NCBI GenBank assembly: GCA_002699145.1
Contig: PABK01000004.1
Location: 62,001 to 126,000 of the forward strand
Source of the DNA: Halioglobus sp.
Lineage (GTDB): Bacteria > Pseudomonadota > Gammaproteobacteria > Pseudomonadales > Halieaceae
Length of the DNA: 64,000 nucleotides
Direction: 5' to 3'
Positions 2,910 through 61,052 of this stretch are shown piece by piece. Numbering within the stretch: the first letter of the stretch is position 1; every line of letters starts with the position of its first letter. Below the pieces are notes generated by a model that was given only the letters and a program-made list of their open reading frames with translations, did no database searches and was not told where the DNA came from. The position numbers and the translations under genes are program-made.

Positions 2910-5900
2910 ATGATCGACAAGCTGACTCGCCAGGTACTCCTGTCCCTGGTCTGCGCACTCGGGGGCATGGTCTGCCTGCCGGCGCTCGCCGACGATACCG
3001 AGATCTACAAGACGCGCTCGCTCGATGTCTCGTCCGGGCGCCCGAAGGTCCTCATCATCATGGATGACTCGGGCAGTATGGACACCACGGTCGAGGGGCA
3101 GCGTCCCGCCTACGACCCGACCAAAACCGATTACCAGGGCGGTATCTCCGGCAGCGAGTTCGACCGCATCTACTGGAGCACCGGGGACAACGGGCCGCCG
3201 CGTTCCAACAGCGACAACTGGTTCGCCATCGACAGGAACCGCTGCGCCTCGTCCTTTGACGCACTGGACAACCAGGGTTTCTTCCAGACCGCCAGCGCCC
3301 GCCGCTGGGTCGACAGCTCCACCGAAACCACCTGCACCATCACGCGCTACTACTGCTCCAACACCGGCGCCACCATCTACAGGAACCGCGATGCGCGTCG
3401 CTGTCGCCGCAACGGGGGCAGTGTGCGTACCGAGGAATCCTGTGAGACCAACACCCTGCCGGGGCGCTGGCGCAGCCTGTCCGACAACGTCAACTACCCC
3501 GCGCACGTGGAGTGTGAGAGCGATGTCACCGGCGCCGAGCCGGGCAACGGTCCCAGCGTGGCCGACGGCTACCCCCAGGACAACGTGGCCGATGGCGACG
3601 CCCTGGGCGCCGCGACCCCCGAGGACGCCGACGATATCTGGGGCAGCACCACCTACAAGTTCTACAGCGCCAATTACATCGACTACTGGAACGACGATTC
3701 GCTGACCGAAGACCGCACGCGCATGGCGATCGCGCAGGACGTGATCGCCGACCTGGTCAGTGCGAACACCGGTGTCGACTTTGGCCTGGCGACCTTCAAC
3801 CGCAATGACAACGGCGAGAACGAGGACGGCGGCCGCATCATCCACCGCATCATCCCGAACATGACCGCGGGCGAGCGCAGCGGCCTGGTCGATATGATCG
3901 AGAACGACCTGGACGCCGACGGCTGGACGCCGCTGTGCGAGACCTACTACGAGGCCTACCGCTACCTGTCCGGAAAATCGGTGCGCTACGGTGACAACCG
4001 CGACACCGGTGGCAGTCCCGACCGGGACCTGCCGCCGCGCGACCTGAACGCGGAAAACGGCAGCAAGGTCTACAATTCCCCGCACACAGACTGCCAGTAC
4101 GCCTACATCATCCTCATGACCGATGGCCTGCCAACCTACGATACCGCGGCCAACAGCTCCATCGAGTCACTGACCGGCAAGACCTGCCGCTACTGGGAAG
4201 ACGACATCGGCGGCAACGGCAATCCGAAAAACTGCCTGCCCGAACTGGCCGAGTACATGGCCACCACGGACCTGGACGGCGACGACGAGAACGGCGTACA
4301 GAAGGCGGTGACGTATACCATCGGCTTCGAGATCGATCAGCCGCTGCTCTCGGAGACCGCGCGCCTGGGAGGCGGCGACTACAACACGGCCTTCAGCGCC
4401 GACGAACTGGCTGGCGCCTTCAGCAGCGTGATCGACAGCATCCTGTCGGACGCGGGTAACTTCACCTCGCCGGCGACGGCGGTGGACAGCTTCAGCCGTA
4501 CGCAGAGCCGCGACGTGGTGTACTACGCCATGTTCAAGCCGGCCCAGCGTGTCGACTGGCGCGGCAATATCAAGAAGTTCAAGATCGCCGACACGGGTGA
4601 CGGGCCGTTCGTCGTGGACCGCAACAACTTCCCCGCCATCGACCCGGTGAGTCGGGACTTCAAGGCCAATGCGAGCAGCTACTGGAGCACCCAGGACGGT
4701 CCCACGGTGGACAAGGGTGGCGTCGGCGGCCTGCTGGCGGCGCGCGACCCGGCGACCCGCCGCGTCTTCACCAATACCGGTACCGGCGGTGCGCTGGAGG
4801 TATTTGAAACGGACAATATCACGCCCGACGCCTACGACCCGCCGTTCGAGGACGACGCCGCCCTGTGGGCGCAGTGGGGGGTCGGCAGCGCGGCCGACCT
4901 GGCCAAGGTGGTCAACTGGGGCCTGGGTTACGACGCCGGCGTCGTCGCCAATGGCCCCCGCGAGTGGATCCTGGGCGATATCCTGCACAGCCAGCCCCAG
5001 GTGGTGAACTACGGCTCCAGGGGCGGTTTCAGCGACGACAACCCGGATCTGCGTGTGCTCGTGGGCACCAATACCGGTTTCGTGCACATGTTCGGGGATG
5101 ATAACGGCCAGGAAGACTGGGCGTTCTTTCCCAAGGAGTTCGGCAGTATTCTCAACGACCGGCGGCTCAATGCCGTCTCCAGCGGCAACGTCTACGGCAT
5201 GGACCTGACGCCGGTGGTGTACAAGCTCGATGTCGACCGCGACGGCAGCCTGGACCACACCCAGGGCGACAAGGTCTGGGCCTACTTCGGCATGCGCCGC
5301 GGTGGCGACGCCCTGTACGCACTGGATATCTCCGACCCCGACAACCCGGCATTCCTCTGGGCGGTCGGGCGCACGTTGACCGAGAACGCCGACGAGATGG
5401 GCCAGACCTGGTCGCAACCGGTGATTACCTATATACCCGGGTACACGGATGACCAGGACTTGCCCAAGCCCGTGGTGATCGTCGGCGCCGGCTACGACCC
5501 GAACAAGGACAGCCACAGCGTGGGTACCGCCGACAGCATGGGCCGTGGCATATTCTTCATCGACGCCGAGACCGGCACGGTGATCCGCACCGTGACGCCC
5601 GACGCCGGCTCGCTGCTCAATGTACAGGCCGACGGCCTGCAGGACTCGGTACCGAGCGAGGTCGCGGTGCTGGACAGCAACAACGACCTGCTCACAGACC
5701 GCGTGTACTTCGGCGATACCGGCGGCAACGTGTGGCGCGTGGACATCGGGCCGCGACTGCCGGATGCCGGCGATTCCACCGAGACCTGGTTTGCGACCAG
5801 GCTGGCGGTGCTGGGCGGCAACGCCACCGACAACGACCGGCGCTTCTTCTACAAACCGGAAATTGCGCTGCTCACCCTGGCCAACGGCGAGTCGGTGGAC

Positions 5901-6575
5901 GCGGTGATGCTCGGCAGCGGCGATCGCACCAACCCGCTGGCCACGGATGTCGACAACTTCTTCTACCTGCTGCGCGATCCGCAGACCACGCTGTACACGG
6001 ACGATGCGCCGACAGCCGCGGAATGCGACGACAGCGACCCGGACAACTACCCGCTGGACAACCGCTGCTTCCTGCCCATCTCGCATGCGGCCCTGTTCGA
6101 CGTGCCAGACAACCGGTTGCTCAACGGCGCCGACGAGGACGACAAGGCCGACGCCGTGGCGGAACTGCTCGCCGCGCCGGGCTGGAAGTACGCCCTGACG
6201 CTGAGCGGGGAGAAGGTGACCACCAGCGGCAGCGTGCTGGCCGGTGAACTGGACTTCGCGACCTTCTCGCCGGTCTCCCTGGCGGCGGATATCAATACCT
6301 GCACGCCGGCTTCGGGTACGGGGCTGCGCTACTACCTGGATATCTTTTTCGATCCCGGCACGCCGGACGATCCGCCGCCGGACCCGCTGCCGCCGGGCGA
6401 TATCCCGGATGACACCAGCCTCTATGTGACCGAAGAGGGCCAGGTGTACAATCCGGAGTCACCGAAGACGCCGCCGGACCCCAACGACCCGGACGATGAC
6501 GACAGCGGCTTCAAGGAGCGTGACGCGGCGCTGCCGCCGCCCTACGGCAATTACTGGTACTCAGAGGAGTATTGA
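2910..6575 (+). CDS. pilY1: Type IV pilus tip adhesin PilY1
   Basis: PilY1 sits at the pilus tip and acts in adhesion, pilus extension and surface sensing. The protein has 1221 residues with a signal peptide ending near LPALA (about residue 28). A von Willebrand A domain follows, with a MIDAS motif DDSGS at residues 52-56 and long insertions up to about residue 520. The C-terminal half is the PilY1 beta-propeller, seen in MRRGGDALYALDISDP and in the Ca2+-loop-like DSNNDLLTD before a GDTGGNVWRVD blade. The tail is rich in Pro and Asp. The ATG at 2910 follows a GGGGG run and gives a clean signal peptide; an in-frame extension upstream would not. The pilE start lies three bases after the stop. 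Confidence 0.92.
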   Translation: MIDKLTRQVLLSLVCALGGMVCLPALADDTEIYKTRSLDVSSGRPKVLIIMDDSGSMDTTVEGQRPAYDPTKTDYQGGISGSEFDRIYWSTGDNGPPRSNSDNWFAIDRNRCASSFDALDNQGFFQTASARRWVDSSTETTCTITRYYCSNTGATIYRNRDARRCRRNGGSVRTEESCETNTLPGRWRSLSDNVNYPAHVECESDVTGAEPGNGPSVADGYPQDNVADGDALGAATPEDADDIWGSTTYKFYSANYIDYWNDDSLTEDRTRMAIAQDVIADLVSANTGVDFGLATFNRNDNGENEDGGRIIHRIIPNMTAGERSGLVDMIENDLDADGWTPLCETYYEAYRYLSGKSVRYGDNRDTGGSPDRDLPPRDLNAENGSKVYNSPHTDCQYAYIILMTDGLPTYDTAANSSIESLTGKTCRYWEDDIGGNGNPKNCLPELAEYMATTDLDGDDENGVQKAVTYTIGFEIDQPLLSETARLGGGDYNTAFSADELAGAFSSVIDSILSDAGNFTSPATAVDSFSRTQSRDVVYYAMFKPAQRVDWRGNIKKFKIADTGDGPFVVDRNNFPAIDPVSRDFKANASSYWSTQDGPTVDKGGVGGLLAARDPATRRVFTNTGTGGALEVFETDNITPDAYDPPFEDDAALWAQWGVGSAADLAKVVNWGLGYDAGVVANGPREWILGDILHSQPQVVNYGSRGGFSDDNPDLRVLVGTNTGFVHMFGDDNGQEDWAFFPKEFGSILNDRRLNAVSSGNVYGMDLTPVVYKLDVDRDGSLDHTQGDKVWAYFGMRRGGDALYALDISDPDNPAFLWAVGRTLTENADEMGQTWSQPVITYIPGYTDDQDLPKPVVIVGAGYDPNKDSHSVGTADSMGRGIFFIDAETGTVIRTVTPDAGSLLNVQADGLQDSVPSEVAVLDSNNDLLTDRVYFGDTGGNVWRVDIGPRLPDAGDSTETWFATRLAVLGGNATDNDRRFFYKPEIALLTLANGESVDAVMLGSGDRTNPLATDVDNFFYLLRDPQTTLYTDDAPTAAECDDSDPDNYPLDNRCFLPISHAALFDVPDNRLLNGADEDDKADAVAELLAAPGWKYALTLSGEKVTTSGSVLAGELDFATFSPVSLAADINTCTPASGTGLRYYLDIFFDPGTPDDPPPDPLPPGDIPDDTSLYVTEEGQVYNPESPKTPPDPNDPDDDDSGFKERDAALPPPYGNYWYSEEY

Positions 6576-54579: not shown

Positions 54580-55191
54580 ATGGATACCCAGACACAGGCC
54601 AAGTGGGACAAGGCCGCGCCGACCTTCGACCTGATGGCCGGCAAGGGCGCCGAGGCCCGCTGGCGGCCATTCAAGGAGCAGCTGTTTGCCAATATGCAGG
54701 GGCGCATCCTGTTCCTGGCCCTGGGCACCGGGCTGGATATCGAGACCTTTCCTCCCGGCAGGGACATTACCGCCATCGATATCAGTCCGCGGATGCTGGA
54801 GGTCGCCGGGCCGCGCATCGCGGCCTATGATGGCGATATCGACGCCCGCGTGATGGATGTGCACGAGCTTGATTTTGCAGATGCCAGTTTCGACCAGATA
54901 TTCACTTCCTGCACGTTCTGTTCGGTGCCGGACCCGGTCGCCGGCTTGCGCGCGCTGCGCCGCGTGTTGAAACCCGGCGGCGAGCTGTTCATGTTCGAGC
55001 ACACCGGCTCGCGCTATTACCCGTTCAAATTGATGATGGACCTGATGACACAGCTCACGCGCAGGATCGGGCCGGACATGAACCGGCCGACGCTGCACAA
55101 CGTGCGCGCGGCTGGCTACCGCGTTGTCGAGGTGAACAACCTGTTCCTGGACGTGGTGAAGACGATTCGCGCGGTGAACCCCGAGACCTAG
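54580..55191 (+). CDS. Class I SAM-dependent methyltransferase
   Basis: A 203-residue methyltransferase of the UbiE/Methyltransf_11 type. Motif I is FLALGTGLDIETF, followed by AIDISPRMLEVA (acidic loop end), FDQIFTSCTFCSVPD and RRVLKPGGELFMFEH. The substrate is unknown. It ends with a four-base overlap into the convergent SulP gene. Confidence 0.82.
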   Translation: MDTQTQAKWDKAAPTFDLMAGKGAEARWRPFKEQLFANMQGRILFLALGTGLDIETFPPGRDITAIDISPRMLEVAGPRIAAYDGDIDARVMDVHELDFADASFDQIFTSCTFCSVPDPVAGLRALRRVLKPGGELFMFEHTGSRYYPFKLMMDLMTQLTRRIGPDMNRPTLHNVRAAGYRVVEVNNLFLDVVKTIRAVNPET

Positions 55192-56930
55192 ATGATATAG
55201 GGCTCGATATCATCGGGCTTGAGGGAATTTACCGCGCGGTGGTGGGTGAGGAAAACGCGGCCGCTCAGCTTGCGCAGGAACGCCGTGTCGCGCAGCCTGT
55301 CCATCACCGGACCCTTGACCTCGCTCAGGTGCAGTTGCAGCCCCAGTTCACGTAGCCGCTCGTTGACCGCTTCCAGTGCCTCCAGTGCGCTCATGTCGAT
55401 CTCGTTGATGCCCGTGCACTGCAGGACGACGTGTTCGAGCGCGTCGTTGTCGGCGACCTGGCGGTAGATCTCGTCCTGCAAATAACCGGCATTGGCGAAA
55501 TACAGGCTCTCGTCCACCCGCAGTGACAGCAGGTTGGGATACGTAATGACATTGTGGCGCCGCACATTGCGGTAGTGCTCGGTGCCGGGCACCGCACCGA
55601 CCACGGCGATGTGGGGGCGTGAGGTCTTGTAAAGATGCAGTGCCAGGGAGGAGGCGATGCCGGCCACGACCCCAAGTTCCACGCCCAGCAGCAGGGTCAC
55701 CCCAATGGTGGTGGCCACGGCGATGAAGTCCGCCCGGGAGTAGCGCCAGGCGCGCAGCGGCATGTGCAGGTCTATCAGCGTGCTGACGGCGACGATAATG
55801 GTCGCCGCCAGCGCCGCCTTGGGCAGGAAATACAGCAGCGGCGTGAACAGCAGGGTGGTCAGGGCGATACCCGCCGCCGCCAGCAGGCTCGCCGCGGGCG
55901 TCCGTGCGCCCGCGTCGAAATTCACCACCGAGCGCGAGAACCCGCCGGTGACGGGAAAACCGCCGGAGATGGCCGAGGCGGCGTTGGCCGCGCCCAGCGC
56001 CACCAGTTCCTGGTCCGGGTCGATGCGTTGGCGGCGCTTGGCGGCGAGCGTGCGTCCGACAGAGACCGATTCCACGTAACCGATGACGGAAATCAGCAGT
56101 GCGGACAGCGCCAGTTCCGACCACAGCCGGGCGTCCCAGGGGGGCATGGCGAGCCCGGGCAGGCCGCGCGGGACGGCGCCGACCAGGTCCACGCCCAGCG
56201 CCTGGAAATCCGCCGCCTGGCTGGCGCAGATGGTCGCCGCAATCACCGCCACCGGCGCCGCCCTGGCGAGAATGCCGGCGGCGGTCTCCCCAGTACCCGC
56301 CCGACGCAGCAGGGGCTGCAAGCCGCCGCGTGCCCAGGCCAGGAAACCGATGGCCAGCGCGCCGGTGAGCAGGGTGACGCCGTTGGTGTCGGGCAGGGCG
56401 CGCCACAGCGAGACGCACAGCGACGGCAGCGTGTCGCCGCCGGCGTCGACGCCGAGAATATGGCGCACCTGGCTGAGCCCGATGATCACACCAGAGGCCG
56501 TGATAAAACCCGAGACCACCGGGTGGGAGAGGAAGTTGGACAGGGCCCCGAAACGCAGCAGCCCCATGCCCAGGAGCATCAGGCCGGACAGCAGGGCCAT
56601 GACCACCGCGGCGCCGGCGTACTCGGCACTGCCGGTTTCGAACAGGCGCCCAACGGCGGTGGCGGTCATCAGTGATACCACCGCCACCGGTCCCACCGAC
56701 AGCGTGCGGCTGCTCCCCAGCAGTGCATAGGCGGCCAGCGGCAGGATGCTCGCGTACAGGCCCATCTCCGCCGGCAGCCCCGCCAGCAGGGCGTAGGCCA
56801 GGGACTGGGGAATGAGCATGATGGTGACGATCAGCGCCGCCAGGGAGTCGCTGGCCAGGGTGGGCCCGTCGTAACCCCGCGCCCACTGCAGGGGCGGGAA
56901 CAGGCGGGCCAGGTCGCGTTGCGTTCGCAT
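55188..56930 (-). CDS. SulP-family anion transporter with STAS domain
   Basis: A 580-residue SulP transporter. About ten to twelve membrane helices with the family patterns VTIMLIPQSLAYALLAGLP (first helix) and NAASAISGGFPVTGGFSRS, then a cytoplasmic STAS domain (about residues 450-560; LQCTGINEIDMSALEALEAV). The ATG at 56930 overlaps the SQR stop (TGATG), so it is the third gene of the sulfide oxidation operon. SulP members move sulfate, bicarbonate or other anions; here sulfite/sulfate export or thiosulfate handling is a reasonable guess. Confidence 0.9.
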   Translation of the reverse strand: MRTQRDLARLFPPLQWARGYDGPTLASDSLAALIVTIMLIPQSLAYALLAGLPAEMGLYASILPLAAYALLGSSRTLSVGPVAVVSLMTATAVGRLFETGSAEYAGAAVVMALLSGLMLLGMGLLRFGALSNFLSHPVVSGFITASGVIIGLSQVRHILGVDAGGDTLPSLCVSLWRALPDTNGVTLLTGALAIGFLAWARGGLQPLLRRAGTGETAAGILARAAPVAVIAATICASQAADFQALGVDLVGAVPRGLPGLAMPPWDARLWSELALSALLISVIGYVESVSVGRTLAAKRRQRIDPDQELVALGAANAASAISGGFPVTGGFSRSVVNFDAGARTPAASLLAAAGIALTTLLFTPLLYFLPKAALAATIIVAVSTLIDLHMPLRAWRYSRADFIAVATTIGVTLLLGVELGVVAGIASSLALHLYKTSRPHIAVVGAVPGTEHYRNVRRHNVITYPNLLSLRVDESLYFANAGYLQDEIYRQVADNDALEHVVLQCTGINEIDMSALEALEAVNERLRELGLQLHLSEVKGPVMDRLRDTAFLRKLSGRVFLTHHRAVNSLKPDDIEPYII

Positions 56931-58600
56931 CAGGTCCCGATCTTGAATTGATCCGGCTCGACCATCCACTCGCGGCCACGCAGCATGCCCTGCCAGTAAA
57001 CCGGCGGCAGTATGCGCTCCTTGAGAATCCAGGCCAGGCGAGAAGGCTTCTGTCCGTCAATGAGCCAGCGCGGAAAGCTGGGCAGCAGCTTGCCGCCGTA
57101 GCCGAACTCGGCGAGCACGATCCTGCCTTTTTCCACGGTCAGCGGGCACGAGCCGTAGCCGTTGTAATGCGCAATACCCGACACCTTGCCCATGTCCTCG
57201 AGAAGGTTGTTGGCGACGATCGGCGCCTGCATGCGTGCGGCGGCCGCCGTCTTGGCGTTGGGCGCGTTCATTGCATCGCCAAGCCCCCAGATGTTGTCAT
57301 AGCGCTTGTGGCGCAGCGTGTTCTGGTCCACGTCGATCCAGCCGGCGCTGTCCGCCAGGCTGCTGTCGCGCACGAAGTCCGGGGCGCATTGCGGCGGCGC
57401 CACGTGGATCATGTCGAATTCGCGTTCGATTTCCGTCTGCGTACCGTCGCTGTCGGTCGCCGTGAACCAGGCGCGCCGGCTGTCGCCGTCAATGCGCAGC
57501 AGTTGCTGGCCGAGGTTCAGGTCGACCCCGTAGCGCTCAATATAGGCCATCAGCGCCGGCACGTATTCTTTCACGCCGAACAGTACATCCGCCGCGCTGC
57601 AGAACTGCACATCGATGTTGGCCAGGGCCCCGTTGCGCCGCCAGTGGTCGCAGGACAGGTATACCGCCTTCTGCGGCGCTCCCGCGCACTTGATCGGCAT
57701 GGGCGGCTGGGTGAACAGCGCGCGACCACTGTGCATACCGCTGACCAGTTGCCAGGTGTACGGCGCCAGGTCGAAACGGTAGTTGGAAGTCACGCCGTTG
57801 CGTCCCAGGGTTTCCACCAGGCCCTCGATGCCGTGCCAGTCCAGCTTGATGCCCGGGGCGACCACCAGGCGGGAGTAGTATACCGGTCGTGTGTCCTCGA
57901 GAATGACACGGTTGAGGTCCGGCTCAAAGGCGGCGACCGCTGCCTGAATCCAGTGCACACCGCGCGGGATGAGCGAGGCCATGGTCCTGACCGTGGCGCT
58001 CCTGTCGAACACGCCCGCGCCCACCAGGGTCCAGCCCGGCTGGTAGTAGTGCACCTCGGCGGGATCGATTATGGCGATGTCCAGGTCGGCGTCGCGGGCC
58101 AGCAGGCTCGAGGCCGCGGCGATACCGGCTGCGCCTGCGCCGACAATCAGCACATCGTGGCTGGCGTCCAGCGCGGCGTTGTGCAGGTGCGGCGCGAGCA
58201 GGTTTTCCAGGTCGTAGCCCTGGCGCTGCGCGGTGGACAGCAGGGCGCGTGCGGGCACGCCCAGGCGCAACTGGTACAGCGCCCAGAGTGACAGCGAACG
58301 GGTACCGGTGCGGCAGTAGGCGTGGATGGGCCGCGGCAGTCGCTCGAAGGCCAGGGTAAACTGGTCCACCAGTTCAGGGCTGAACTCGCCCGGTGTCACG
58401 GGCAGGTGCACGACGTCCACGCCCAGTTCTGCGGCCCGCGCCTGGATCTCTTCAAAATTCACCTGGTCCGGGCCCTCGCCATCGGGGCGGTTGCAGATCA
58501 GCCCCTTGACGCCTGAACGCGCGAGCTCGTCCAGGGCCTGCAGCGTGAGTTGCCCGGATACCGAAAACTCCTCGTTGACCGGTTTGATGTCGTTGCTCAT
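56930..58600 (-). CDS. Sulfur transferase (TIGR01244)-sulfide:quinone oxidoreductase fusion
   Basis: A 556-residue fusion. Residues 1-115 form a TIGR01244/DUF442-like domain with active-site HAYCRTGTRSLSLW (Cys96). From residue 150 it is an FAD sulfide:quinone oxidoreductase: DVLIVGAGAAGIAAAS, then the redox cysteines Cys304 (PIKCAGAPQK) and Cys484 (GSCPLTVEKGRIVLAEF), as in mitochondrial-type SQR. It would oxidise H2S to persulfide and pass electrons to quinone, with the N-terminal domain moving sulfane sulfur. It overlaps the dioxygenase stop (ATGA) and is followed by SulP. Confidence 0.92.
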   Translation of the reverse strand: MSNDIKPVNEEFSVSGQLTLQALDELARSGVKGLICNRPDGEGPDQVNFEEIQARAAELGVDVVHLPVTPGEFSPELVDQFTLAFERLPRPIHAYCRTGTRSLSLWALYQLRLGVPARALLSTAQRQGYDLENLLAPHLHNAALDASHDVLIVGAGAAGIAAASSLLARDADLDIAIIDPAEVHYYQPGWTLVGAGVFDRSATVRTMASLIPRGVHWIQAAVAAFEPDLNRVILEDTRPVYYSRLVVAPGIKLDWHGIEGLVETLGRNGVTSNYRFDLAPYTWQLVSGMHSGRALFTQPPMPIKCAGAPQKAVYLSCDHWRRNGALANIDVQFCSAADVLFGVKEYVPALMAYIERYGVDLNLGQQLLRIDGDSRRAWFTATDSDGTQTEIEREFDMIHVAPPQCAPDFVRDSSLADSAGWIDVDQNTLRHKRYDNIWGLGDAMNAPNAKTAAAARMQAPIVANNLLEDMGKVSGIAHYNGYGSCPLTVEKGRIVLAEFGYGGKLLPSFPRWLIDGQKPSRLAWILKERILPPVYWQGMLRGREWMVEPDQFKIGT

Positions 58601-59505
58601 GCAGCTGCTCCCGGCGTTGCCAGTTCACTGATATCGTCGCCGCCGAACGCGTTGACCGGCAGGGTCAGGAAAACCCGGCCCTGGGCATTGGCCGGGGGCA
58701 TGTGCCCGGCGCGCATGTTGACCTGCAGGGAGGGCAGGATCAGCGTGGGCATGCCCAGGGTGGCGTCGCGCTTCTCGCGCATGCGCACAAAGCTCATTTC
58801 GTCGACACCCTGGTGCACGTGTATGTTCGCCTCGCGCTGGGCGGCGACGGTGGTCTCGAATTCCAGTTGCCGCTCGTTGGGCAGGTAGTCGTGGCAGACG
58901 AAAATGCGCATGTCGCCGTCCAGCGCCAGGATGCGCTGGATGGAGCGGTACAGGGTGCTCGCGTCGCCGCCGGGAAAGTCGGCCCGCGCCGTACCCGCGT
59001 CGGGCATGAACAGCGTATCGCCGACGAAAATCGCGTCGCCCAGCACATAGGTCATGCAGGCCGGGGTGTGACCCGGCGTGTGCATGGCATAGCCGCGCAG
59101 GCCGCCGATATCCAGCCGGTCACCCTCGCTCAGCAGGACATCGAACTGCGAGCCGTCCCTGGCGAAATCGCCACCCGCGGCAAATATCTCGCCAAAGGTC
59201 TGCTGCACCGTGGTGATCTGCGCGCCGATGGCGAGCCTGCCGCCGACGCGCTGCTGGATATAGGGCGCGGCGGACAGGTGGTCGGCGTGCACGTGCGTCT
59301 CCAGCAGCCACTGCACCTCCAGGCCGTTGTCGCGCACGAAATCGATGATGCGCCGGGCGCCGTCGAAATGGATGGACCCCGAGGGGTAGTCCAGGTCCAT
59401 GACCGAATCGACGATGGCGCAAGCCCGGCTGTGCGGATCCTGTACCACGTAGGAAAGGGTGTTGGTGGTGTCGTCGAAAAAGGGAGTGACCTGCGCCTTG
59501 TTCAT
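58597..59505 (-). CDS. Persulfide dioxygenase (ETHE1-like)
   Basis: A 302-residue metallo-beta-lactamase-fold protein of persulfide dioxygenase type, which oxidises glutathione persulfide to sulfite. The iron ligands are visible: HVHADH (His71), PGHT (His146) and VGDTLF (Asp163), together with GTARADFPGGDA, diagnostic of the ETHE1/PDO group. Relative to short PDOs it has a C-terminal extension. The ATG at 59505 follows GAGGAAAA. First gene of the operon read from the sigma-54 promoter at 59551-59566; its stop overlaps the SQR start. Confidence 0.93.
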   Translation of the reverse strand: MNKAQVTPFFDDTTNTLSYVVQDPHSRACAIVDSVMDLDYPSGSIHFDGARRIIDFVRDNGLEVQWLLETHVHADHLSAAPYIQQRVGGRLAIGAQITTVQQTFGEIFAAGGDFARDGSQFDVLLSEGDRLDIGGLRGYAMHTPGHTPACMTYVLGDAIFVGDTLFMPDAGTARADFPGGDASTLYRSIQRILALDGDMRIFVCHDYLPNERQLEFETTVAAQREANIHVHQGVDEMSFVRMREKRDATLGMPTLILPSLQVNMRAGHMPPANAQGRVFLTLPVNAFGGDDISELATPGAAA

Positions 59506-59550
59506 GTTTTCCTCGCTGTTCGCGGTTGCGATCATTAACGGGAACAGCAC

Positions 59551-59566
59551 AGCAAAGGGCGTGCCA
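59551..59566 (-). promoter_or_regulatory. Sigma-54 promoter of the sulfide oxidation operon
   Basis: Read on the minus strand, TGGCACG-CCCT-TTGCT is an exact match to the -24/-12 consensus TGGCACG-N4-TTGCW, with ten bases between GG and GC. Transcription would start near 59540, about 35 bases before the persulfide dioxygenase ATG. The divergent gene encodes a sigma-54 activator. Confidence 0.9.
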
Positions 59567-59594
59567 GAAGATAACCTGCCTAAAATATCTTTCT

Positions 59595-59607
59595 CAACCC
59601 TTTGAAA
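59595..59607 (-). promoter_or_regulatory. Probable IHF-binding site
   Basis: On the minus strand TTTCAAAGGGTTG matches the IHF consensus WATCAANNNNTTR with one mismatch. It lies between the sigma-54 promoter and the upstream palindrome, in an AT-rich stretch also bounded by TATCTTT (59586) and AAAGATA (59610). IHF bending would bring the activator to the polymerase. Confidence 0.5.
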
Positions 59608-59675
59608 TAAAAGATAATTGGCTCCTGGCTCGCCACCGAAGCGTGACCCCTGCGCTTGTACCGGGGACTGACTTG

Positions 59676-59689
59676 TGCCAAATTTGACA
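59676..59689. promoter_or_regulatory. Palindromic upstream activator site
   Basis: TGCCAAATTTGACA has twofold symmetry (TGnCAAATTTGnCA) and lies about 140 bases before the predicted start of the persulfide dioxygenase operon and 26 bases before the activator's own ATG. Distance and symmetry fit an enhancer for a Fis-type HTH protein; it may also give autoregulation. Confidence 0.5.
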
Positions 59690-59714
59690 AATCCTACGCC
59701 AGAAACGACAGACC

Positions 59715-61052
59715 ATGGAGCTTATCGCCCGCGATACCGACAGCGCACTGGCGCGCATGCTGGATAGCTACGAACACCCCGCCATCCTGGTCACTCCCGA
59801 CTACCGCATACTGGCCACCAACGACCTGTACCGCGAGCGTTTCGGGCTGATCGACGTCAGTACTGGGCCCGCGCGCTGCTACAGGGTCTCCCACGGCTAT
59901 GACCGTCCCTGCGACCAGGCGGGCGAGGAGTGTCCCCTCGCCGCGGCGGCAGATTCCGGCCAGCGCGAGCGCGTATTGCACGTGCACCAGACGCCGCGCG
60001 GCGAGGAGCACGTGGACGTGGAAATGTTACCGGTGCTCGACGACGCCGGCGAGCTGCAGTACTTCGTCGAACTGCTCAAGCCGGTACCCGTGGCCGGGTC
60101 GGGTGTCGACGAGCGCCCCCTGGTTGGCAGCAGCGCCGCCTTCAACCGCATGCTCGGGCTGATCGCCAGGGTCGCGCCGGGTAATGCGGCGGTCCTGCTG
60201 CTGGGCGAATCGGGTAGCGGCAAGGAGTTGGCAGCCAGGGCAGTGCATCAGGGCAGCCGCCGCTGTGACGGCGCGCTGGTGACCCTGGAGTGCGCGGGCC
60301 TGAGCGAAACCCTGTTCGAGTCCGAGCTGTTCGGGCACGTCAAGGGCGCCTTTACCGGCGCCAACTACACCCGCCGCGGCCTGGCCGAAGCGGCGGACGG
60401 GGGCACCCTGTTCCTGGACGAGATCGGTGATATTCCCTACGCGCTGCAGGTGAAGCTGCTACGCCTGATCGAAACCGGCTGCTACCGGCCCGTGGGCAGC
60501 ACCGAGGTGCGCAGGTCAGATTTTCGCCTGGTCTGCGCCACGCACCGCGACCTGCGTGCGCTGGTCGATGCGGGCGCGTTCCGGCAGGACCTGTATTACC
60601 GTATCAACGTCTTCCCCATCCACGTGCCGTCACTGGCGGAACGTCTCGAGGACCTGCCGGCGCTGGCGCGCGCCATACTCGATGAACTGGCCGGTGAGAG
60701 GAGCCTGCACCTGACCGAGAGTGCACTGGACCTGCTGCGCGCCCACGAGTATCGCGGCAATATCCGCGAACTGCGCAATCTACTGGCGCGCGGGATCGTG
60801 CTCACCAATACCAATGTCATCGACCGCTCGGTCATCGCCCAGGCCCTGGCGACCGGCGAGGCTGAACCGGGTGGACGGAACGCTGGGGACAGGGACCTGA
60901 GCCTGAGGGCGGTAGAGCAGCGCCACCTGCAAAAGTTGCTGCAGGTGTACGCGGGCGATAAGCAGGCGGCGGCTGCCGCCGCCGGTATCAGCCTGCGCTC
61001 GCTGTACAGGAAGCTGCGCGATGTCAGGCAGGCAGCGCGTGATACACACTGA
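59715..61052 (+). CDS. fisR: FisR-type sigma-54 activator of sulfide oxidation
   Basis: A 445-residue bacterial enhancer-binding protein. An N-terminal PAS-like sensor (1-120) holds Cys55, Cys66 and Cys73; the spacing of 11 and 7 equals the sensor cysteines reported for FisR, which senses sulfane sulfur. The AAA+ domain has Walker A GESGSGKE (164-171), the sigma-54 loop GAFTGA (211-216) and Walker B TLFLDEIGD. A Fis-type HTH ends the protein (GDKQAAAAAAGISLRSLYRK). It is divergent from dioxygenase-SQR-SulP, which it should activate when persulfides rise. Confidence 0.92.
   Translation: MELIARDTDSALARMLDSYEHPAILVTPDYRILATNDLYRERFGLIDVSTGPARCYRVSHGYDRPCDQAGEECPLAAAADSGQRERVLHVHQTPRGEEHVDVEMLPVLDDAGELQYFVELLKPVPVAGSGVDERPLVGSSAAFNRMLGLIARVAPGNAAVLLLGESGSGKELAARAVHQGSRRCDGALVTLECAGLSETLFESELFGHVKGAFTGANYTRRGLAEAADGGTLFLDEIGDIPYALQVKLLRLIETGCYRPVGSTEVRRSDFRLVCATHRDLRALVDAGAFRQDLYYRINVFPIHVPSLAERLEDLPALARAILDELAGERSLHLTESALDLLRAHEYRGNIRELRNLLARGIVLTNTNVIDRSVIAQALATGEAEPGGRNAGDRDLSLRAVEQRHLQKLLQVYAGDKQAAAAAAGISLRSLYRKLRDVRQAARDTH

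Follow-up and report, generated by a model that had tools for sequence, protein, structure and literature searches.

Transcription from sigma-54 promoters requires RpoN and an activator ATPase. Enhancer-dependent promoters of this class carry a GG at -24 and a GC at -12, and their activator sites lie about 80-200 bp from the transcription start. In the well-known PspF/pspA and NorR/norVW systems, the activator gene is divergent from its target, the activator sites are found near its own start, the activator is autoregulated, and IHF or bending intervenes between these sites and the -24/-12 promoter. The locus that we describe here resembles them in its divergent activator gene and in the place of its putative activator sites, and probably also in its autoregulation and in IHF or bending; it differs in its signal, its box sequences and the number of its sites. 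Another activator of this kind, FisR, reportedly goes with the sulfide-oxidizing genes (pdo2-sqr) of Cupriavidus pinatubonensis JMP134, in the work of Li et al. 2017.

The FisR/sigma-54 kind of promoter is already known in Cupriavidus and Acinetobacter. In the former, FisR senses reactive sulfur via three conserved cysteines, according to passages of a review (PMC9774590). It is described there, as is predicted for the FisR studied here, as a sigma-54 activator of sulfide-oxidizing genes, with sulfane sulfur sensed through three cysteines. In Acinetobacter baumannii, passages of PMC7315123 report that deletion of fisR abolishes the sulfide induction of the pdo1-sqr-tauE operon, and they describe a divergent fisR and a predicted sigma-54 promoter, as in our locus, but the sensor cysteines are not conserved there, unlike those of our FisR. 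The same passages report that cydAB is induced by sulfide, and make no tie between this induction and FisR. In its main text, this article mentions no binding site, IHF, UAS, palindrome or inverted repeat. More broadly, no FisR operator, box pair or link between FisR and a bd oxidase was found in the excerpts consulted from the open-access literature (including PMC7315123, PMC12170894, PMC10509353, PMC9774590, PMC10164946 and PMC5322542); the founding JMP134 work, which lies outside that scope, may contain an operator.

The control region between pdo and fisR

In the window, i.e., the whole 64-kb stretch of DNA that was analysed, a 209-bp gap (59506-59714) separates pdo from the divergent fisR gene (Table 1). 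Its GC content is 50%, vs 65% for the window, and falls to 30% in a stretch located just 5' of the promoter (59567-59620). The first-pass annotation had read this gap as a sigma-54 control region combining an exact -24/-12 element, an IHF-like site with one mismatch and a 14-base palindrome at about -140, next to the gene of a GAFTGA activator. We found each of these parts in place, and the sigma-54 reading is supported by orthologs, in which the -24/-12 element is kept and the palindrome is kept as one member of a pair. The observation itself was right and understated the case; it contained neither the second, weaker box nor the connection with the bd oxidase that are described below.

The -24/-12 element (TGGCACG-CCCT-TTGCT, minus strand) shows no mismatch to the consensus TGGCACGNNNNTTGCW. 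It is the only such site in the window, where the runners-up have 2 mismatches, and base composition leads one to expect 0.015 exact sites in 64 kb and about 5e-5 in a gap of 209 bp. The transcription start predicted from this element lies 35 bases before the pdo ATG, and the palindrome is centred 142.5 bp upstream of it. The GTG at 59550 was set aside as a start of pdo because it is located upstream of the predicted transcription start, while the ATG is preceded by GAGGA. Two weak sigma-70 promoter matches (9 of 12 positions) occur in or around the gap; neither was adopted, and none was assigned to fisR. Both rpoN and an IHF-alpha gene are found in the genome of the window.

Table 1. Features of the pdo-fisR locus, in positions of the window
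Feature	Position	Strand	Remarks
SulP/STAS permease, closing the operon	55188..56969	-	likely in-frame ATG at 56933 overlaps sqr stop
sulfurtransferase (BLH/TIGR01244)-SQR fusion	56930..58600	-	ATG overlaps pdo stop (ATGA)
pdo, persulfide dioxygenase of metallo-beta-lactamase fold	58597..59505	-	GAGGA lies before the ATG at 59505
predicted transcription start of the pdo operon	59540	-	inferred from promoter, first base of -24/-12 taken as -26
-24/-12 sigma-54 promoter TGGCACGCCCTTTGCT	59551..59566	-	0 mismatches, unique in window
IHF-like site TTTCAAAGGGTTG, centre -61	59595..59607	-	1 mismatch; same strand as, and within, the ortholog cluster at -58..-62
putative proximal FisR box (upstream activating site 1) TGCCAAATTTGACA	59676..59689		kept in orthologs as TGNCA-N4-TGNCA
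putative distal FisR box (site 2) CGCCAGAAACGACA	59697..59710		2 mismatches to TGNCA-N4-TGNCA
fisR, sigma-54 activator	59715..61052	+	PAS-like N-domain with C55/C66/C73, AAA+ with GAFTGA, HTH_8

The FisR protein of the window matches PF00158 and PF02954, and thus has the AAA+ and Fis-type HTH domains of its class. Its GAFTGA motif is replaced by GSFTGA in 4 of 68 full-length relatives. The three cysteines of the regulatory domain, spaced C-x10-C-x6-C, are present, and this pattern recurs in all 85 orthologs of the order and in all 31 further loci. The recognition helix is just as constant, since [ILV]SxR[ST]LYR[KR][IL] is found in 38/38 full-length FisR proteins of the order. The distribution of the gene itself is patchy: at E 1e-80, fisR is detected in 2 of the 18 genomes of the genus, that of the window included.

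On the other side of the gap, it is the dioxygenase half of NCBI model Blh that the pdo product matches, with a score under the whole-protein cut-off. This model joins both activities in one protein, whereas in the window the BLH sulfurtransferase domain is fused to SQR and the adjacent PDO is separate; a BLH-SQR-like fusion is also present in locus L219. A search for a second pdo in the genome of the window returned only three remote matches, with 32-36% identity over part of the protein. The SulP gene follows sqr in one other locus (L022) and pdo in three (L018, L111 and L222), and this recurrence beside sqr or pdo leads us to propose that the SulP of the window may move a sulfur oxyanion made by PDO.

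Conservation and geometry of the promoter and the box pair

Conservation was studied in 85 fisR loci, namely that of the window, 12 from relatives, 2 from named genomes and 70 from the order. Among relatives, 13 of 57 genomes matched (that of the window included), and in the order 76 of 390 matched at E 1e-100. Of the 80 loci given by the named-genome search, L021 and L022 were kept; in 77 others, the match begins at residue 100 or later, outside the sensor domain, and L098 (residues 2-437, 32% identity) was left out. Another locus, G148, was dropped, its gene beginning at a contig edge. A set of 82 loci omits the near-copies L021 (of L114), L110 and L144 (both of L109), and the genus-level count omits L021.

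The proximal box is an imperfect 14-bp palindrome, with one mismatched pair out of seven, and shows no mismatch to TGNCA-N4-TGNCA. The distal box lies 21 bp further on, and four bases separate its end from the fisR ATG, so that both fall between 39 and 5 bp before this codon. Their centres, at -142.5 and -163.5, are at the distances expected for activator sites of a sigma-54 enhancer, and FisR is the protein predicted to bind them. Taken by itself in the window, the pair lacks significance (a single match at a limit of 3 mismatches vs 0.26 expected, and 23 of 100 shuffles have one); the case for it comes from conservation.

This conservation is strong. In 72/85 loci, there is a pair of boxes with no more than 2 mismatches in total and a spacing of 19-24 bp, while base shuffles lead one to expect 0.04. 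The first-pass reading hinged on the persistence of the GG and GC of the promoter in relatives, and a -24/-12 site with both fixed and at most 3 mismatches overall was likewise found in 72 of the 85 loci, against 3.2 expected from base shuffles. In the 82 non-duplicate loci of the order, 68 have the pair (20-24 bp apart), 69 the -24/-12 element and 62 both, which leaves 14 loci without the pair and 13 without the promoter under the filter used. At the genus level, after removal of one near-copy, 28 of 32 genera have at least one locus with the pair, 26 with the promoter, and 24 with both in order. A motif-free alignment of 15 hand-picked gaps brings out the same columns, and contains no further conserved repeat. 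The box frequency table was drawn from sites chosen by motif; the evidence therefore comes solely from the alignment and from the comparison with shuffles.

Beyond the order, we considered 31 loci, i.e., 29 among the best matches, plus the plasmid records of Cupriavidus metallidurans and Pseudoalteromonas xiamenensis. The pair (at most one mismatch per box) occurs in 18 of them vs 0.02 expected, mostly with a spacing of 30-34 bp; the promoter is present in 19, promoter and pair together in 15, and 13 have no pair. The box pair thus seems to occur with a spacing of either two helical turns or three. L203, the relative from C. metallidurans CH34, shares with the window the C-x10-C-x6-C spacing and a divergent pdo-sqr. 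Unlike the window, it has no box pair under the rule used, but clustered TGCCA/TGGCA half-sites in another arrangement; on its promoter strand, a promoter-like TGGCACGGGTTTTGAG can be recognised by eye, with GA replacing GC.

The IHF-like site was scored against the IHF consensus WATCAANNNNTTR. That of the window lies between the boxes and the promoter and has one mismatch. Such a single match is weak, about 19% of dinucleotide-shuffled gaps holding one as good (12.55 of 66). In the ensemble of 66 gaps, which includes looser pairs than the 61-locus set used for geometry, a site with at most one mismatch is found on either strand in 32, vs 12.6 expected, and an exact one in 9, vs 0.66. In the 61-locus set there is a marked strand bias, with 32 sites on the promoter strand vs 7 on the other, and 29 of these 32 fall at -48..-52 or -58..-62, two clusters located 10-11 bp apart. 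Across 30 loci, among which related sequences were kept, their position shifts with the box distance (r = 0.65). Of the three sites of the first-pass annotation, the promoter and the palindrome, as a pair, are conserved, while the strand and position of the IHF-like site are common to 28 of 61 loci only (9 of 24 genera). The three near-copies remain in these 66-gap counts, in the correlation above, in the 85-locus counts and in the rounded-distance test given below.

The distance between the proximal box centre and the predicted start is most commonly about 140 bp in orthologs. In 54 of 61 loci, the box-promoter distance differs by no more than 2.6 bp from a value of the series 140.5 + k x 10.5, the centre of 140.5 being taken from the same data. 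When the 19 genus-level values that lie off 140 are put to a V-test, u is 2.52 (p about 0.006). If the phase and period of this set are then imposed on 15 loci of other orders, 12 of them are within 2.6 bp (p about 0.025). These two signals depend on the period, and both vanish at 10.0 bp (u = 0.79 and u = 0.03, respectively). A genus-level Rayleigh-type test gives p = 0.0003 with a best period of 12.0 bp, a result inflated by the cluster at 140, and a test on distinct rounded distances gives p = 0.03, a crude figure given that rounding took half-values to even numbers. The phase signal is also partly inherited. We regard it as likely, with moderate support, that box-promoter distances favour whole helical turns.

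Candidate divergent targets of the FisR control region

The nearest recognised divergent gene in the 85 loci encodes CydA in 47, PDO in 26, SQR in 1 and an ABC exporter-like protein in 3; in the other 8, no divergent gene was recognised. These labels come from comparison with six reference proteins, representatives being checked by Pfam. From the 47 CydA loci, 20 were picked to span genera and extended up to 6.7 kb, while L021 already covered 4 kb. The type of CydA was judged by length and match, ORFs were listed only from 150 aa, and the second oxidase subunit was confirmed by Pfam in two loci. All 14 loci with the shorter, CIO-type CydA (13 fetched plus L021) have pdo further along this strand. 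It is the next ORF (at least 150 aa) past the second oxidase gene in 13 of them, and lies about 2.9 kb beyond in L225. SQR then follows in 12 of 14 (10 so labelled, L219 by Pfam, and L021); L222 has SulP, and the stretch ends in L225. A fisR-divergent cydA-cydB-pdo order, usually then sqr, is thus seen in L212, L213, L215-L224 and L021. In the longer-CydA loci, there is no pdo in the fetched stretch in 7 of 7 (only 3.4 kb long for L214).

On a FisR tree built from the first 160 residues (84 rows, 161 alignment columns), the PDO and CydA labels need 8 changes each; the minimum imposed by well-supported branches is 6 for PDO and 7 for CydA. Most of these changes would be explained by a gain or loss of cydAB at the operon front. 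The genome of the window has its own cydA (L172). The roughly 800 bp that precede it contain no box pair with a spacing of 20-24 bp, and the -24/-12-like match has 4 mismatches; with no boxes in this region, control of this cydA by FisR is unsupported.

Other arrangements were seen at single loci. In L216, a peroxiredoxin gene (AhpC/TSA, 1-Cys C-domain; 5712-6371, minus strand) lies between fisR and cydA and is the first divergent gene. In L101, this place is taken by a TauE/SafE sulfite exporter, followed by a distant PDO-like gene. Three fisR-like genes (L151, L160 and L162) have a tandem upstream gene and no divergent operon; this upstream gene matches Lysine_decarbox/SLOG in L151, and its counterparts in the other two are alike by eye. 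Their genomes carry a second fisR-like copy (L164, L159 and L161), divergent to an ABC exporter that is CydD-like by eye.

Proposed mechanism and alternatives

We consider it very probable that the gap is a FisR/sigma-54 enhancer control region for pdo, sulfurtransferase-sqr and sulP, probably assisted by IHF and switched on by sulfane sulfur. The sigma-54 RNA polymerase would wait, closed, at the -24/-12 element, while two FisR dimers would occupy the paired 14-bp boxes beside the fisR start codon. Modification of C55, C66 and C73 by sulfane sulfur would be accompanied by the assembly of the AAA+ domains into an active ring. IHF, at about -61, would probably bend the AT-rich spacer, and the FisR ring would meet the polymerase and open it. 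FisR bound to the boxes would probably also restrain the expression of fisR itself, given how close these boxes lie to its ATG.

This last point raises the question of whether the boxes serve mainly as an operator for fisR repression, by FisR or another regulator, the promoter and FisR being as proposed and the true activating sites lying elsewhere or being dispensable. Such an arrangement would account for boxes that stop, in median, 6-7 bp short of the fisR start codon, whether the divergent gene encodes CydA or PDO, and for the three tandem loci (L151, L160 and L162), which retain at least one box with at most one mismatch and in which no -24/-12 was found. We nevertheless judge it improbable: autorepression alone requires neither the whole-turn tendency of the box-promoter distances nor positioned IHF-like sites, and no other repeat that could serve for activation is conserved in the 15 aligned gaps. 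Even less credible is a regulator other than FisR, whose boxes would be tied to the fisR locus by chance. As the loci were gathered via the fisR gene, the association of the boxes covers fisR loci only; however, both the box and the FisR recognition helix are conserved, and the boxes remain beside fisR while the divergent gene switches repeatedly on the FisR tree, which makes this explanation very hard to sustain.

The part attributed to IHF is more exposed. The element could be a mere AT-rich spacer, perhaps intrinsically bent, to which no IHF binds, and the low GC content of this stretch in the window, the one mismatch of its site (a kind of match common in shuffles) and the 33 of 61 loci devoid of a promoter-strand site at the preferred positions all point that way. 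The strand bias and the two position clusters nonetheless speak against a bare spacer, which we hold to be rather unlikely, though well ahead of the two previous alternatives.

Beyond the window, we lean slightly towards a broader proposal, in which FisR, besides being a detoxification switch, would act in many bacteria as a master switch for sulfide-proof respiration. A single enhancer design, with two boxes spaced by two or three helical turns, a bend site around -50 or -60 and a whole-turn box-promoter distance, would drive pdo-sqr, cydAB alone or cydAB-pdo-sqr, and the operon front would have gained or lost cydAB on at least about six occasions. The locus of the window is the plain pdo-sqr version of this layout. 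A specific candidate operator for a sulfane-sulfur sensor, together with simple spacing tendencies, would make it possible to predict FisR targets from the sequence. Moreover, as the same control region precedes CIO-type bd oxidase genes that are followed by pdo and in most cases by sqr, it would seem that the detection of sulfide directly induces a sulfide-resistant terminal oxidase along with the enzymes that feed electrons to it.
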